From: Fibrobacter sp.
GTDB lineage: Bacteria; Fibrobacterota; Fibrobacteria; Fibrobacterales; Fibrobacteraceae
Length of the DNA stretch: 64,000 nt
Assembly: GCA_012511955.1 (NCBI GenBank)
Contig: JAAZFC010000003.1
Span: 1-64,000, forward strand
Direction of reading: 5' to 3'
The notes beneath the pieces were generated by a model that saw only the letters and a list, made by a program, of their open reading frames with translations, made no database searches and had not been told where the DNA came from. Position 1 is the stretch's first letter, and the number at the start of each line of letters is the position of its first letter. This document shows positions 31,480-37,335 of this stretch, piece by piece. The position numbers were made by a program, and so were the translations under genes.

Positions 31480-31927
31480 TATTATCCTTAACTAAGCTGC
31501 TTAAAGCATCGGGATACATGGTTATTTTCAAAAAATCCTGCAATTCTAGTTCTTCGGCAACCCAGCCCACTTCTTTCAGGCTTTCCAAAATTCTGTTACC
31601 GCCCAATTCTGCCCCTGCTTTTTTAACATCCAACAAAACCACACCTAAACCCGCAGAATCCTCTATGTAACCCATAATATCCGAACCGCGGAAAAATCGC
31701 GTTAAGTGTTCAAAAATGCGCCCCCAAAAATGATTTTGCTCCACAAAATGATATTTGTGTTTTTCCATATTTTCAAAGTGTAGTTCCACATAAGCAAAAT
31801 AACTTCCCGTGCGATCCGAGCGTATCATTTCCTCTTGAATACGCTGTTCAAACATCTCCCAGGGATAAATAAATAGCTCGTGGTTTAGATGCCCAGCCAA
31901 CTCTTTTAAAATAACTGCAGTGTGCAT
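31460..31927 (-). CDS. Degenerate GGDEF-like domain protein
   Basis: 155 residues. The order of elements recalls a diguanylate cyclase fold: SDRTGSYFAYVELHFENMEK (substrate strand and helix), GRIFEHLTRFFRGSDIMGYI (where R-x-SD-x-x-GR normally stands) and then DSAGLGVVLLDVKKAGAELG. The GG(D/E)EF signature is absent, so it cannot be an active cyclase of the usual type. It could be a c-di-GMP-independent regulatory domain. Strong similarity is not claimed. Its -10 element lies 6 nt before the ATG with no ribosome binding site. It is divergent from the DUF4954 gene. Confidence 0.5.
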   Translation of the reverse strand: MHTAVILKELAGHLNHELFIYPWEMFEQRIQEEMIRSDRTGSYFAYVELHFENMEKHKYHFVEQNHFWGRIFEHLTRFFRGSDIMGYIEDSAGLGVVLLDVKKAGAELGGNRILESLKEVGWVAEELELQDFLKITMYPDALSSLVKDNNENLGD

Positions 31928-31933
31928 TACTCA

Positions 31934-31939
31934 ATTGTA
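31934..31939 (-). promoter_or_regulatory. Putative -10 element of the GGDEF-like gene (leaderless)
   Basis: TACAAT on the minus strand, ending exactly 6 nt before the ATG at 31927. No clear -35 was found. Confidence 0.4.
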
Positions 31940-31951
31940 GCAAATCTTGTG

Positions 31952-31957
31952 TATCTT
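31952..31957 (+). promoter_or_regulatory. Putative -10 element of the DUF4954 operon (leaderless)
   Basis: TATCTT ends exactly 6 nt before the ATG at 31964; no Shine-Dalgarno is visible. It lies 12 bp from the divergent -10 at 31934-31939, so the two polymerases would compete. Confidence 0.38.
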
Positions 31958-31963
31958 TTCTGT

Positions 31964-33859
31964 ATGGATATTTCACAAAACATTAAAAACGATTTTATTT
32001 CTAGCCCTCTGGGAAGTTTTTCTGAGCAATTGGCTCAAGCTAAGATTTTTCGCCAAAAGATAAGAGCTCTAAAAGATGAAGAAATCGAAAAATTAAAATC
32101 CCAAGGTAACATTTGTGAAAATTGGTCCGAAATTATGGTAGCCCCTGATTTTACCACTGAACGCATTCACTACAATATATTTCGCGGAAAACTTGTTTTG
32201 CCTCATTTCTTCGGGTCTGTGCTCACCCCAGGCGGAGTTTCTGTGCCCACGGGTATCTATCGCAGCACTTTAGGAGAATGTATCATAGAAAACAGCCATA
32301 TCCAAGATGTCTCCATTATGTCCGGGGTTATAGTTTCTGCGGGGGCTACTTTACAAAACATCGGTTCTTTTATCGCCAGCGGTATTACCTCGTTTGGCAC
32401 AGGTCGAAGCATTGCCGTAGGCAGTGAAATGGGGGGCAGAAGTTTCCGCATAAATGCCGATATTTCATGGGATTTATGCACCCAACTGATTTTAAACCCT
32501 GAAAACACTGAATTACAAGAGTCTTACGATAACTTTATGGACGACTGGAAACTCACCAACCAGCACAATATGTGCTTTGTGGGCAAAGCTGTGGCTTTAT
32601 GCAACACGAATATTGTGCGCAATGTGTGGATTGGCGACAACGCGCGTATTGATGGTGCGGCTAAGTTACGCAATGCGGTAATTTATAGTTCGCTGGAGTT
32701 TCCCACAGAAGTTTTCGATGGAGTGATATTAGAAGGTGCCCAAGTCCAAGAAGGCTCCAAAGTACACTCCTTTGCCCAAGTGCGCGATTCCATAATGTTT
32801 AAGCAAAGTCGCGCTGGGCGCAATGCATTAATCAGTTCTTCGCTCATAGGTTCTTTTGCTCATTTAGAAGAAGCTGAAATTACATCTTCGCTAGTGGGTC
32901 CATTAACCCAAATGCACCACCAATCCCTACTTATCGGTGCTTTATGGCCTCAGGGACGAGGTAATGTAGGTTATGGGGCCAATGTGGGTAGCAATCATAC
33001 TGGTAAAATGGCCGATCAAGAACTTTTCGCAGGTGAAGGAATGTTTTTTGGTTTGGGTTGTAGCGTAAAATTTCCCACGGATTTTGCCCAAGCCCCCTAT
33101 AGTATAATTGCCACAGATGTATGCACTGATTCCCAAAAAATGACATTCCCTTTTGCCTTGGTTTGCAAACCTTTACAACGACCTAGTGGTATAAACGCAA
33201 ATTTAAACGAAATTATCCCAGGTTGGCAATTTGCCTACAATGCTTTTGCCTTAGAACGCAACTTTTTTAAATACAGCCAAAGGGTAAAATCCCCAGATTT
33301 TGTTTTTGAAAAAAACATTTTTAACCCTGAATTGGCTCAACTGGTACTCAATGCTTTAATTGCACTTAAAAAAGCTCCTCTTAAAGACATTTATACCAAT
33401 GATGACATTCCTGGGCTAGGAAGCAACTTTATGCGAGCATCCACCTTACAAAACGCCATTAATAGCTATGAAAAATACTTAGAGCACTTTGGTATCACGG
33501 GAGCTATGGAAATCTTGGAAAAACAAACCCTTAAAAACATTAAAAGAAGCACGCTTACTAATGTAAAACGGATTTTCCAGGGAGATTTGCTAAAAGATAT
33601 CTATGAGTTGGTGGAATTTCCCCAAAAAACTTCCGCTCTAGTGCGCCGACATCGCACTTTAGAAAGACAATGGCAAGAGCAAATAAAGATATCCCAAGAA
33701 AGAGACGCAATCAAAGGTCGGGAAATTTTCTCTGATTACGATGCCACTCACCCACCCCAAACAGATTTTATACAATGGTGCAAGGATCGCTATGAAAGAG
33801 AACGCAAAAGATGTAACACCATGCTCAATGCCCTTAAACTCACTAGAAAAAATGATTAG
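31964..33859 (+). CDS. DUF4954 left-handed beta-helix protein
   Basis: 631 residues from the ATG at 31964 (MDISQNIKNDFISSPLG); longer readings to 31922 are unsupported. The middle (about 65-400) has many hexapeptide-like turns, for example VWIGDNARIDGAAKLRNAVI, GAQVQEGSKVHSFAQV and GNVGYGANVGSNHTGKM, as in sugar-nucleotide acyl- or nucleotidyltransferases. The C-terminal 150 residues are helical and charged. DUF4954 occurs mainly in Bacteroidota, spirochaetes and relatives and has no proven function; nucleotide-sugar or glycan chemistry is likely. It is the first gene of a six-gene + strand unit. Confidence 0.8.
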   Translation: MDISQNIKNDFISSPLGSFSEQLAQAKIFRQKIRALKDEEIEKLKSQGNICENWSEIMVAPDFTTERIHYNIFRGKLVLPHFFGSVLTPGGVSVPTGIYRSTLGECIIENSHIQDVSIMSGVIVSAGATLQNIGSFIASGITSFGTGRSIAVGSEMGGRSFRINADISWDLCTQLILNPENTELQESYDNFMDDWKLTNQHNMCFVGKAVALCNTNIVRNVWIGDNARIDGAAKLRNAVIYSSLEFPTEVFDGVILEGAQVQEGSKVHSFAQVRDSIMFKQSRAGRNALISSSLIGSFAHLEEAEITSSLVGPLTQMHHQSLLIGALWPQGRGNVGYGANVGSNHTGKMADQELFAGEGMFFGLGCSVKFPTDFAQAPYSIIATDVCTDSQKMTFPFALVCKPLQRPSGINANLNEIIPGWQFAYNAFALERNFFKYSQRVKSPDFVFEKNIFNPELAQLVLNALIALKKAPLKDIYTNDDIPGLGSNFMRASTLQNAINSYEKYLEHFGITGAMEILEKQTLKNIKRSTLTNVKRIFQGDLLKDIYELVEFPQKTSALVRRHRTLERQWQEQIKISQERDAIKGREIFSDYDATHPPQTDFIQWCKDRYERERKRCNTMLNALKLTRKND

Positions 33860-34219: not shown

Positions 34220-35170
34220 ATGAGTTTGTTAAATAAAGCTTTTTTGTTTTTTTTAAGCCTTGCTATCCTTGGCTGGACCAATACAAAGCACTTTTATAAT
34301 CACTCTACCTCCAAGCAAAATTATTACGAGTTTTGGGATTATCAATTTGTTTTCAAAAATGGTACCAAAGTCTTTTTAACCTATTCTTTGGTTAATATCC
34401 CGGCTTTGGGAAAAAAGGTGGCCGCAGAACTCTCCATGCATGCTTTTCAGGGTGCGCATCCATCGGTGGGCAGACAATTTCCCCACTCCGATTGGCATGA
34501 AGACAAAGCCCAGCAAAGGATTTTTATGCGACAAGGGCATTTTATGGAAAATGCCCCTGGTAACAACCATCGCGTGCTTTTTGAAACACAAAAAAATCAA
34601 GGTTTTTTAATAGATATAACTTTTAGTCAATGCGCTAAATCTGGTCCTTTAGATGTCAGTCCAGCGGCTAAAGACACATTGCATATCATCAGCCATATTC
34701 CCCACGGTCAAGTCAAAGGAACCATCGCCGTGGGTAAAGATACTCTACAAGTTACAGGCTACGGATCTTTAGTACATTCTTGGCATAAAAGGAATATCAG
34801 CGATTTAGCCAGTAAATCCGTTTTCCTTTTAGGTTCAAATTCCCAGCTTCCCACCGCAAAACTTTTCCAAGACAAAAACGGTAATGTTTTGGGAATTGCC
34901 ACTGCTGTAATCCAAGGGCAAAGCACCAATTTAAGAGCTCGAAGCATAGAGGAAAAAGACAAAATATTAACCATAAAATGGAACAAAAATGTTCCTAACA
35001 CAACCATAAATTTAAATCAAGTTAAACAGCGCTATTCAGCCTTAACCAACATTGATAGCTGGTTAGAAAAGCAAGCGGCGCGTTTAATTTTAGGCGGCGA
35101 AATGATTCTTTTACGCGGAGCCACATCAGCAGCAACTGGAATAGTGCATTGGACTGCCGCTGGGTACTAA
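34220..35170 (+). CDS. Exported CrtC/AttH/Svf1-like lipocalin-fold protein
   Basis: 316 residues with a signal peptide (MSLLNKAFLFFLSLAILGW). The body reads as a two-lobed lipocalin of the AttH/CrtC (hydroxyneurosporene synthase-like) group: YYEFWDYQFVFKNGTKVFLT in the first lobe and the family turn GYGSLVHSWHKRNISD (usually G-x-GY-x-DHNWG) in the second. The carotenoid hydratase activity itself is not implied, as the DHNWG core is altered to VHSWH. It may bind a lipid in the periplasm. It lies 2 nt after the peptidase and 1 nt before hisA. Confidence 0.68.
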   Translation: MSLLNKAFLFFLSLAILGWTNTKHFYNHSTSKQNYYEFWDYQFVFKNGTKVFLTYSLVNIPALGKKVAAELSMHAFQGAHPSVGRQFPHSDWHEDKAQQRIFMRQGHFMENAPGNNHRVLFETQKNQGFLIDITFSQCAKSGPLDVSPAAKDTLHIISHIPHGQVKGTIAVGKDTLQVTGYGSLVHSWHKRNISDLASKSVFLLGSNSQLPTAKLFQDKNGNVLGIATAVIQGQSTNLRARSIEEKDKILTIKWNKNVPNTTINLNQVKQRYSALTNIDSWLEKQAARLILGGEMILLRGATSAATGIVHWTAAGY

Positions 35171-35171
35171 T

Positions 35172-35960
35172 ATGAGAAAAAACGCAAAGAAACGCACTAA
35201 ATTTAGACCGTGCATAGATATACATCAAGGAAAAGTTAAGCAAATTGTCGGGGGTAGTTTAAAAGATTCTGGCAAAGGCCTTATTACAAACTTTGTCTCG
35301 GAACAAAGTCCAGCTTATTTTGCCAAAATGTATAAGAAAGATCAACTTCAAGGCGGACATATTATTATGCTAGGTCCAGATAACGAAGATGCTGCTATCC
35401 AAGCACTAAAAGCCTGGCCCCAAGGTATGCAAATTGGCGGTGGTATCAACTTAGAAAACGCTAGTTTTTGGATAGAACAAGGGGCTTCCCATGTTATTGT
35501 TACTTCGTGGATTTTCAAAAATAACTCCCTGAATTTAAAAAGACTGGAACAATTGCACGAAAAAGTGGGACGGGAACATCTTGTTTTAGATTTAAGTTGT
35601 CGCAAAACTTCTGAGGGTTGGAATGTGGCCATAAATCGTTGGCAAACTATTACCCCAGTACAAATAATTCCCAAAACCTTAGATTTATTAGCCGAATATT
35701 GCGATGAGTTTTTAATTCACGCCGCCGATGTAGAAGGTAAACAGCAAGGAATGGACGAAGATCTTATCAAGTTTTTGGCAGAATATTGTCCCATTCCCGT
35801 TACCTATGCTGGAGGAGGTCGTTCCATCGATGATTTGCGCAAGTGCAATGAAATTTCCCAAGGATTGGTTGACTTAACTATTGGTAGTGCTTTAGACATT
35901 TTTGGAGGCAAAGGAGCCAAGTATGAAGAATGCGTTCGCTACAACCAAGGAAAACTCTAA
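35172..35960 (+). CDS. hisA: HisA of the eukaryotic (His6) type
   Basis: 262 residues, a TIM barrel that isomerises ProFAR to PRFAR in histidine synthesis. The sequence follows the fungal/plant His6 form and not the usual bacterial form: FRPCIDIHQGKVKQIVGGSL, GGHIIMLGPDNEDAAIQALK, VIVTSWIFKNNSLNLKRLE, LVLDLSCRKTSEGWNVAIN, EFLIHAADVEGKQQGMDE and VDLTIGSALDIFGGKG all have direct yeast counterparts. The two phosphate-binding loops (GGGINLENA, AGGGRSIDDL) and catalytic Asp near the N-terminus are kept. No other his gene is near; it sits in an envelope operon. The next gene starts inside its last 38 nt. Confidence 0.92.
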   Translation: MRKNAKKRTKFRPCIDIHQGKVKQIVGGSLKDSGKGLITNFVSEQSPAYFAKMYKKDQLQGGHIIMLGPDNEDAAIQALKAWPQGMQIGGGINLENASFWIEQGASHVIVTSWIFKNNSLNLKRLEQLHEKVGREHLVLDLSCRKTSEGWNVAINRWQTITPVQIIPKTLDLLAEYCDEFLIHAADVEGKQQGMDEDLIKFLAEYCPIPVTYAGGGRSIDDLRKCNEISQGLVDLTIGSALDIFGGKGAKYEECVRYNQGKL

Positions 35961-37335
35961 AGACGAATACGATATCCCTGGACGTAAAATTACCAGCAGA
36001 TTCAAAGGCAAATACTTTAGATATTGCACTGAAAATCCTGTCTGGGGAGTATTTTTAATACCTATTCTCGCTACAGCGCAGATTTTAATATATTTGCCCC
36101 AATTGATAAAACTGCGTTTTTACATAAAATCGTACCGCAAAAAGAATCCCCAACGCCCTCAAAGAGTGGTTTTTTGGTCAGACACTTTAGATGAAGTTAA
36201 TGGCATCGCCAACAACATACGCTTAGCAGTAAAAGAGCACTTAAAACAAGGGCGAAAAGTGCATTTGATTGGGGCTATTCATCGCAGTCGCACCCAAGGC
36301 AAAGTGGAAGATAGCTTGGCCATGCTTTTACCCGTGTTTTTCGCCATGCCGCAACTAGGATATCCCAGCAGTGAGCTTTCTATTCCGCACATCAAGCCTT
36401 TACTCCGCTTAGCAAAGCGCTATCCCCCGGATTTAATAGAATTGCAAACCCCTAATCCCGGGTCGTGGACACTAATGTTTATGGCGCGAATTATTGGGGT
36501 AAAAGCTATTTCCCACTATCGCACTGATGGCGTGGGTTATACTAGGCTTTTAGTCAAATTTAAACCCATGCACTACTATGTACACGCTTTAATTTGGGTG
36601 TTTTCTCGCTTTACCACCCCAGTGATAGTTCCTTCTAAAGATTTTGAAAAGAAAGTGCGTCGCCAAATGTCTCTAAAAGCCGATCAAGTGGTACTTTTGC
36701 CTCGGGGAATTGATTTACAGCCTTTCAGTCCTAAATTACGGAGCAATAATTATTGGAATAAGCATTTTCCTCCCTCAAAATCAGCCTCTCAACCAGTGCG
36801 CTTTATATCAGTGGGGCGGGTTTCCTTAGAAAAATCTTTGCCTTTTTTAGAAGAAGTTTGGCAAGATTTTCGCCAAAAAAATCTAGATGCTCAGCTTTTG
36901 ATCGTGGGAGATGGTCCTTATTTGCAAGAGATGCAAGCCCAACAAAAAGACTATGCTAGCATTAGATTTACAGGGCAATTAACTGGTGCTGAACTGTATA
37001 GCCTTTTTGCAGAAGCTGATTTTTTTGTGTTTCCCAGCGGCAACGATACTTTTGGCAATGTGATTGTAGAGTCCATGGCTAGCGGTACCCCAGTGATTGT
37101 TTCAGATCAGGGCGGACCCAAAGATATTTGCACCCCCCAAACCGGTTGGATCAAAGGTTTTTTACAAAAAAACGAATGGATAAATGCCCTGGAACATTGC
37201 TGGAAGCTTAAAACCCATGCCCCAGACGATTACAAAACCATGCGCAAAAAATGCTGGGAAAACTCTAAAAATTATTCTTTAAACAGTGCTTGTACGGCAC
37301 AATGGGAGTTCTTTCGTACTCTTATTAAAAATTAA
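35923..37335 (+). CDS. GT4-family glycosyltransferase
   Basis: About 470 residues. The ATG at 35923 with AAAGGAG upstream is used; it overlaps the hisA end by 38 nt. A membrane-associated helix (GVFLIPILATAQILIYLPQL) precedes the GT-B fold. Then come VFWSDTLDEVNGIANNIR (DG/DEVNG N-lobe motif), LLPRGIDLQPFSPKLR, FISVGRVSLEKSLPFLEEVW and VFPSGNDTFGNVIVESMASG with the E-x7-E arrangement. This resembles phosphatidylinositol- or diacylglycerol-sugar transferases that begin with D-x-x-x-G. A lipid acceptor is plausible but unproven. Confidence 0.83.
   Translation: MKNAFATTKENSKDEYDIPGRKITSRFKGKYFRYCTENPVWGVFLIPILATAQILIYLPQLIKLRFYIKSYRKKNPQRPQRVVFWSDTLDEVNGIANNIRLAVKEHLKQGRKVHLIGAIHRSRTQGKVEDSLAMLLPVFFAMPQLGYPSSELSIPHIKPLLRLAKRYPPDLIELQTPNPGSWTLMFMARIIGVKAISHYRTDGVGYTRLLVKFKPMHYYVHALIWVFSRFTTPVIVPSKDFEKKVRRQMSLKADQVVLLPRGIDLQPFSPKLRSNNYWNKHFPPSKSASQPVRFISVGRVSLEKSLPFLEEVWQDFRQKNLDAQLLIVGDGPYLQEMQAQQKDYASIRFTGQLTGAELYSLFAEADFFVFPSGNDTFGNVIVESMASGTPVIVSDQGGPKDICTPQTGWIKGFLQKNEWINALEHCWKLKTHAPDDYKTMRKKCWENSKNYSLNSACTAQWEFFRTLIKN

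Follow-up and report, generated by a model that had tools for sequence, protein, structure and literature searches.

A HisA of the His6/HISN3 form in Fibrobacterota as a member of a probably old, patchily spread bacterial branch, the likely source of the eukaryotic genes

An ORF in the window, by which we mean the whole 64,000-nucleotide stretch of Fibrobacter DNA analyzed here, raises the question of how a bacterium comes to carry a HisA of the kind known from yeast (His6) and plants (HISN3). The original prediction had relied on five motifs, all of which are indeed present in the translation of ORF 35172-35960, to propose that the protein follows fungal and plant His6 more closely than standard bacterial HisA, and had offered two readings: either the gene passed between bacteria and eukaryotes, or the eukaryotic gene arose from an old bacterial branch. 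We consider it probable, at about 0.83, that the ORF encodes the HisA of this cell, that its form represents an old and patchily distributed bacterial branch replacing the standard enzyme, and that the eukaryotic genes probably came from bacteria. The product would be a TIM-barrel isomerase converting ProFAR to PRFAR in histidine synthesis. The features discussed below are collected in table 1.

Table 1. Coordinates of the hisA gene, of its neighbors in the window and of two HisH-HisF fusions found in other bacteria
Feature	Position	Strand	Remarks
hisA, TIGR02129 (His6/HISN3) form	35172..35960	+	ATG at 35172, stop codon ends at 35960, 262 codons (262 aa); putative ProFAR isomerase; conserved Asp16, Asp140, Glu188
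316-aa protein, unmatched in Pfam (E up to 1) and in NCBIfam (E up to 1e-10)	34220..35170	+	homolog adjoins hisA in 5/5 same-family loci
Glycosyltransferase, GT4 type	35902..37335	+	likely ATG start at 35923
DUF4954 protein	31922..33859	+	order upstream common to L053 (another genus of the family)
HisH-HisF fusion, Desulfobacter latus	L228:350-1939		both families over cut-off
HisH-HisF fusion, Nitrospirae MAG	L229:360-2057		both families over cut-off

The TIGR02129 model ("hisA_euk") matches the ORF product along its whole length (profile 1-255 of 255) with 406.3 bits at a cut-off of 229.3, compared with 68.4 bits for the standard HisA model TIGR00007, a score far below the cut-off of 228.95 that leaves the protein outside that family. 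With the protein as query in a phmmer search of PDB sequences, Medicago HISN3 (275.5 bits, E 3e-81; 51% identity) and yeast His6 (263.9 bits, E 1e-77; 52% identity) are followed in third place by the Campylobacter HisA 4gj1, at 38 bits. HISN3 and His6 are the only close relatives in the PDB, and the proposed closeness to the fungal and plant enzymes over standard HisA is borne out; the resemblance is far beyond chance. Within this named family, whose fold and reaction are already known, the gene is an ordinary member. It differs from yeast His6, apart from the identity value, in being bacterial and in adjoining a glycosyltransferase gene. Its G+C content is 0.395, against 0.398 for the window.

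With 26 aligned bacterial sequences as input, AlphaFold gave a model of the protein with a mean pLDDT of 94.6. Foldseek places two entries of the D57N mutant of Medicago HISN3 (9fcf and 9fcg) and yeast His6 (2agk) at ranks 1-3, with TM scores of 0.94 for 9fcf and 0.83 for 2agk; both the best HisF and the HisA of S. enterica (5abt) reach 0.76. The predicted fold is thus closest to plant HISN3 and yeast His6, and the barrel is shared with standard HisA, whose reaction the window protein presumably catalyzes too. In an alignment of the TIGR02129 form comprising 181 rows (179 bacterial; some genes are in twice), every row carries Asp140, Ser142, Trp157, His183, Glu188, Gly189 and Gly245-Gly246. 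Asp16 occurs in 179 rows, the exceptions being one gap and the Medicago chain, whose Asn at this first catalytic position is, according to the PDB entry titles, the engineered D57N change. Since the conserved positions occur in all 181 rows, the motifs quoted in the original prediction are not specific to eukaryotes. In an alignment to the Campylobacter enzyme (4gj1), Glu188 of the window protein lies opposite the Asp of the KDG motif, which we take to be the general acid of standard HisA; in the TIGR02129 form Glu188 may play the part of this canonical Asp. Forty-five of 160 rows share a C-terminal signature in which FGG is followed by four residues, an aromatic residue, two further residues and Cys; they comprise yeast, the gene of the window (present twice, as win and L002), 32 others of family f1, one row of f3, three of f4 and six Verrucomicrobiota. 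The f2 row L038 has the Cys with a three-residue spacing, and six of the 160 rows do not fit the pattern at all. Whole-length match, predicted fold, conserved residues and this signature are all common to the window protein and yeast His6, whereas Medicago has three residues and Val in the signature.

A standard hisA was sought with the PF00977 profile in the assembly of the window's genome (2.68 Mb, 96.85% complete). The search returned three matches: HisF on contig 35 (243.9 bits), the present gene on contig 15, and, on contig 43, a weak match below the cut-off whose ORF resembles TrpA. The names HisF and TrpA come from a reading of the sequences, the former being supported by its use as a query in a tree with HisF rows. 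With these as the sole matches to PF00977, no standard hisA was found in the 2.68 Mb assembly, and the TIGR02129 gene is the only HisA candidate found. Contig 78 carries histidinol dehydrogenase (PF00815, 512 bits), adjacent to ORFs that, judged by their sequences, resemble citramalate synthase and IlvE. Although hisF and hisD are present, a search of the window's genome for HisH, which partners HisF in the next step, found none, so that the genes recovered do not add up to a complete histidine pathway; loss, divergence or gaps in the assembly may account for the missing hisH. A TIGR01855 (HisH) match is missing in 7 of the 31 genomes of the relatives search, the window's genome included.

The position of the gene in other bacteria bears on its function. 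Cohnella luojiensis (L130) has the arrangement hisG-hisD-hisB-hisH-[TIGR02129]-hisF-hisIE-hisJ, and every his neighbor passes the cut-off of one or more models for its family. The TIGR02129 gene here fills the hisA slot of a his operon, which supports a HisA function. A second Bacillota locus (L160) has hisD-, hisB- and hisH-like ORFs before the gene and a hisF-like ORF after it, as named from their sequences. On the basis of its family, its conserved residues and the Cohnella operon, the window protein would have ProFAR isomerase activity. When 24 of the 80 named genomes carrying the form were searched with PF00977, the matches beyond the gene itself were HisF-like, half-length or, in G187, a fragment at the end of a contig, and no additional long HisA-like match appeared; one of the 24 (G175) has no HisF match either. 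The half-length matches (profile about 1-130 to 2-144) lie in ORFs of 431-459 aa, beside HisF and the His6 form, in four Lachnospiraceae: Kineothrix (G177), Mediterraneibacter (G183), Roseburia porci (G185) and Blautia (G188). A second strong PF00977 match in Scalindua (223 bits) was considered as a standard HisA and rejected, being best to HisF and WbuZ, below both cut-offs, and adjacent to HisH. For Roseburia, a published study places hisA apart from the his operons (PMC7478625).

In the window, a single base (35171) separates the stop codon of the 316-aa protein from the start of hisA, and the glycosyltransferase, read from its likely ATG, would share 38 bases with the end of hisA. We compared the window's genes with 12 other loci. 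The trio of 316-aa gene, hisA and glycosyltransferase recurs in all five loci of the same family (L053, L052, L004, L012, L021), the homologs of the 316-aa protein directly before hisA having 29-45% identity, and the pair of hisA and glycosyltransferase in the one f2 locus compared (L038). At the remaining six loci hisA stands alone among the genes compared, the glycosyltransferase not being found there.

Is the form peculiar to this organism? Among 167 Fibrobacterota genomes, TIGR02129 has a match in 155 and exceeds its cut-off in 152. Twelve genomes are without any match. Three of these (G164, G165 and G166) are the only genomes of the phylum sample with standard HisA (TIGR00007) above the cut-off, and in G166 the standard hisA lies directly before hisF; the other nine, with completeness of 65-92%, have neither HisA form over the cut-off. 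Two genomes of the window's class (G156 and G158, family f4) also have neither form over the cut-off at 95-98% completeness, with HisH and a HisF-like match present in both. One Fibrobacterota family is very rich in species of one genus.

Beyond the phylum, TIGR02129 matches above the cut-off were obtained for 58 of the 145 Verrucomicrobiota genomes sampled, 43 of the 64 from Latescibacterota, 3 of the 249 from Pseudomonadota and 5 of the 249 from the phylum of Kineothrix, each whole-genome phylum sample including its own center genome, which has the gene by choice. This brings the total over the five phyla sampled to 261 genomes (152+58+43+3+5). Fourteen control genomes gave a weak match in 13 cases and none over the cut-off, and the Verrucomicrobiota scores are two-humped, lying at 314 bits or more or at 49 bits or less among the matches listed. 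A scan of named bacterial and archaeal genomes yielded at least 596 pattern matches, 589 of these encoding relatives. The best 80 were chosen by likeness to Medicago and are not an even sample; 79 of them carry 13 NCBI phylum labels, namely Bacillota (41), Thermodesulfobacteriota (11), Verrucomicrobiota (6), Pseudomonadota (6), Myxococcota (4), Latescibacterota (2), Kiritimatiellota (2), Lentisphaerota (2) and five phyla with one each. Bin labels are those deposited at NCBI; L095 (G175), labeled Gemmatimonadota, falls in the phylum of the Latescibacterota genome. The name "eukaryotic HisA" is thus misleading for a form common in several bacterial phyla of the collections searched, and the original prediction needs correction where it took the likeness as a mark of exchange involving this organism in particular, the form being widespread in bacteria. 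A search with yeast His6 against viral contigs gave two pattern matches, neither of them a relative. On plasmids (tblastn), one of 11 records is close, that of Paenibacillus cellulosilyticus (annotated hisA, 50% over 95% of the query); the other ten are weak (22-31% identity), two of them carrying an annotation as HisF and eight as the standard isomerase.

Three maximum-likelihood trees were computed, with 108, 99 and 67 rows, respectively. The second takes 99 of the 181 rows, in which several genes occur twice, and adds 24 Verrucomicrobiota and 5 Latescibacterota; the third (67 rows, 65 different) combines 56 rows of the TIGR02129 form with 5 canonical HisA and 6 HisF, one gene being present three times. 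Most loci of the genus-rich family f1 were left out, the eukaryotes are represented by two rows, yeast (a fungus) and Medicago (a plant), and the bootstraps had not settled in the first and third trees. In the third tree the 56 rows stand apart from canonical HisA and HisF at 100/100, and a placement inside standard HisA, which would have spoken against the original prediction, was not found. Standard HisA is joined by a very long branch (10 changes per column, with a program warning of long branches), which leaves the root inside the TIGR02129 form unfixed. The first tree unites the window, its class and yeast in a group of 14 (99/98), with four Verrucomicrobiota rows adjacent (99/93); elsewhere in this tree the locus named Chitinispirillaceae (L162) falls among the f6/f7 family rows. 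In the second tree the corresponding group A has 27 rows (100/98), composed of 10 from the window's class, 14 Verrucomicrobiota, 2 Pseudomonadota and yeast, and the other side, group B, contains 14 rows from other Fibrobacterota classes, 16 further Verrucomicrobiota and Medicago. The five rows nearest to the window in this tree are all bacterial. Constraining all 24 Fibrobacterota rows to one clade costs 117.8 log units and is rejected (p 2e-23), so the gene has been transferred, or duplicated and lost, among bacteria too. For the 10 rows of the window's class, a group defined once the tree was known, a single clade is not rejected (p 0.076).

All three trees place both eukaryotic rows among bacterial ones, yeast always inside the window's group and Medicago always outside it. 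A single clade of the two is not rejected in the first set (p 0.0645) and is rejected in the better-sampled second set (p 0.00048). The 26 bacteria of group A without yeast, again a group defined once the tree was known, are not rejected as a clade (p 0.0725), and yeast may therefore be sister to group A and not inside it. The yeast branch is long (1.41, 1.22 and 0.97 in the first, second and third trees). An origin of the fungal gene from the window's class in particular was suggested by the first tree, with yeast inside the class beside L038 (92/82), but was discarded when, after the addition of 24 more Verrucomicrobiota rows, yeast shifted in the second tree to join Verrucomicrobiota within that group (85/18 and 91/84). 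The neighbors of Medicago in group B are Latescibacterota and others in the first and second trees and Lachnospiraceae in the third. As the nearest neighbors of both eukaryotes change between trees, we name no donor; the closest bacterial relatives of the yeast gene include the window's class.

The two readings of the original prediction do not fare equally, an old bacterial branch fitting much better than transfer from a eukaryote into this lineage, because the form is over the cut-off in those 261 genomes and the eukaryotic rows fall among bacterial ones in every tree. Had an ancestor of the lineage taken the gene from a fungus or plant, for example in a gut, with later spread among bacteria, the constant presence of yeast in the window's group would be explained, as would the C-terminal signature with Cys common to yeast, the f1, f3 and f4 rows and six Verrucomicrobiota; the TIGR02129 family text, moreover, reportedly attributes the copy in Fibrobacter succinogenes to a plant donor. 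The form is nevertheless over the cut-off in 152 of 167 Fibrobacterota and common in other phyla, and the nearest rows to the window are bacterial. The G+C of hisA also matches that of the window, though this is expected after an old transfer too, and on balance we find a eukaryotic donor quite improbable. Straight descent from the phylum ancestor, the likeness to eukaryotes reflecting slow change only, accords with the same 152 genomes and with the gene order kept in the five family loci. It is rejected for the phylum as a whole by the one-clade constraint, and three Fibrobacterota genomes have standard HisA instead; a single clade is compatible with the data for the class alone, and we give this explanation very little weight. 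Equally improbable is a paralog with another role, tied for instance to the neighboring glycosyltransferase, instead of the HisA of histidine synthesis. The gene does adjoin the glycosyltransferase, away from his genes, and HisH was not found in the window's genome, but the gene is the only HisA candidate found there, HisF and histidinol dehydrogenase are present, the conserved positions are kept, and the form stands in a his operon in Cohnella.

If the old-branch reading is right, the His6/HISN3 form would represent a broad bacterial branch of patchy distribution, taking the place of standard HisA and passed from one bacterial phylum to another. It would comprise a sub-form of the window's class shared with some Verrucomicrobiota and yeast (group A) and a sub-form of the other Fibrobacterota classes that have it, into which Medicago would fall (group B). 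The eukaryotic genes would most likely derive from such bacteria and not the reverse; we infer both this direction and the number of transfers. A single transfer to eukaryotes is possible, one fungus and one plant having been sampled and the yeast branch being long. A double origin of the eukaryotic gene, separately in fungi and plants, is from this one fungus and one plant a lead. We put forward, tentatively and at somewhat less than even odds, at least two acquisitions by eukaryotes, the fungal gene from group A and the plant gene from the other group, with the HisHF step perhaps sharing bacterial sources. A 2024 paper on Medicago HISN3 reportedly proposes a non-cyanobacterial origin. In the literature searched, which leaves most subscription journals outside, no discussion was found of the TIGR02129 form as a bacterial family or of a double origin. 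The breadth of the form in bacteria and the possible double origin in eukaryotes are the points of interest here, and should the split between yeast and plant hold with more eukaryotes, the histidine pathway would become a readable case of eukaryotes assembling a single pathway from several bacterial donors.

For step four of histidine synthesis, the data favor bacteria as givers. A 2007 paper took plants to be the source of the fused HisHF of two delta-proteobacteria (PMC1963479), a comparable case interpreted the opposite way, which counts against the direction from bacteria to eukaryotes. A 2021 paper finds plant HISN2 closest to Deltaproteobacteria (PMC8102479) and another work describes a fungal-like histidine pathway in robust corals (PMC6214176). 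Some of the bacteria with the His6 form also have a HIS7-like HisHF, so that for two consecutive steps of their pathway eukaryotes may have drawn on the same bacterial sources. The genome of Desulfobacter latus carries both the His6 form and the HisHF fusion, and the latter scores 569 bits to yeast HIS7, the next match being HisF-LUCA at 181.5.
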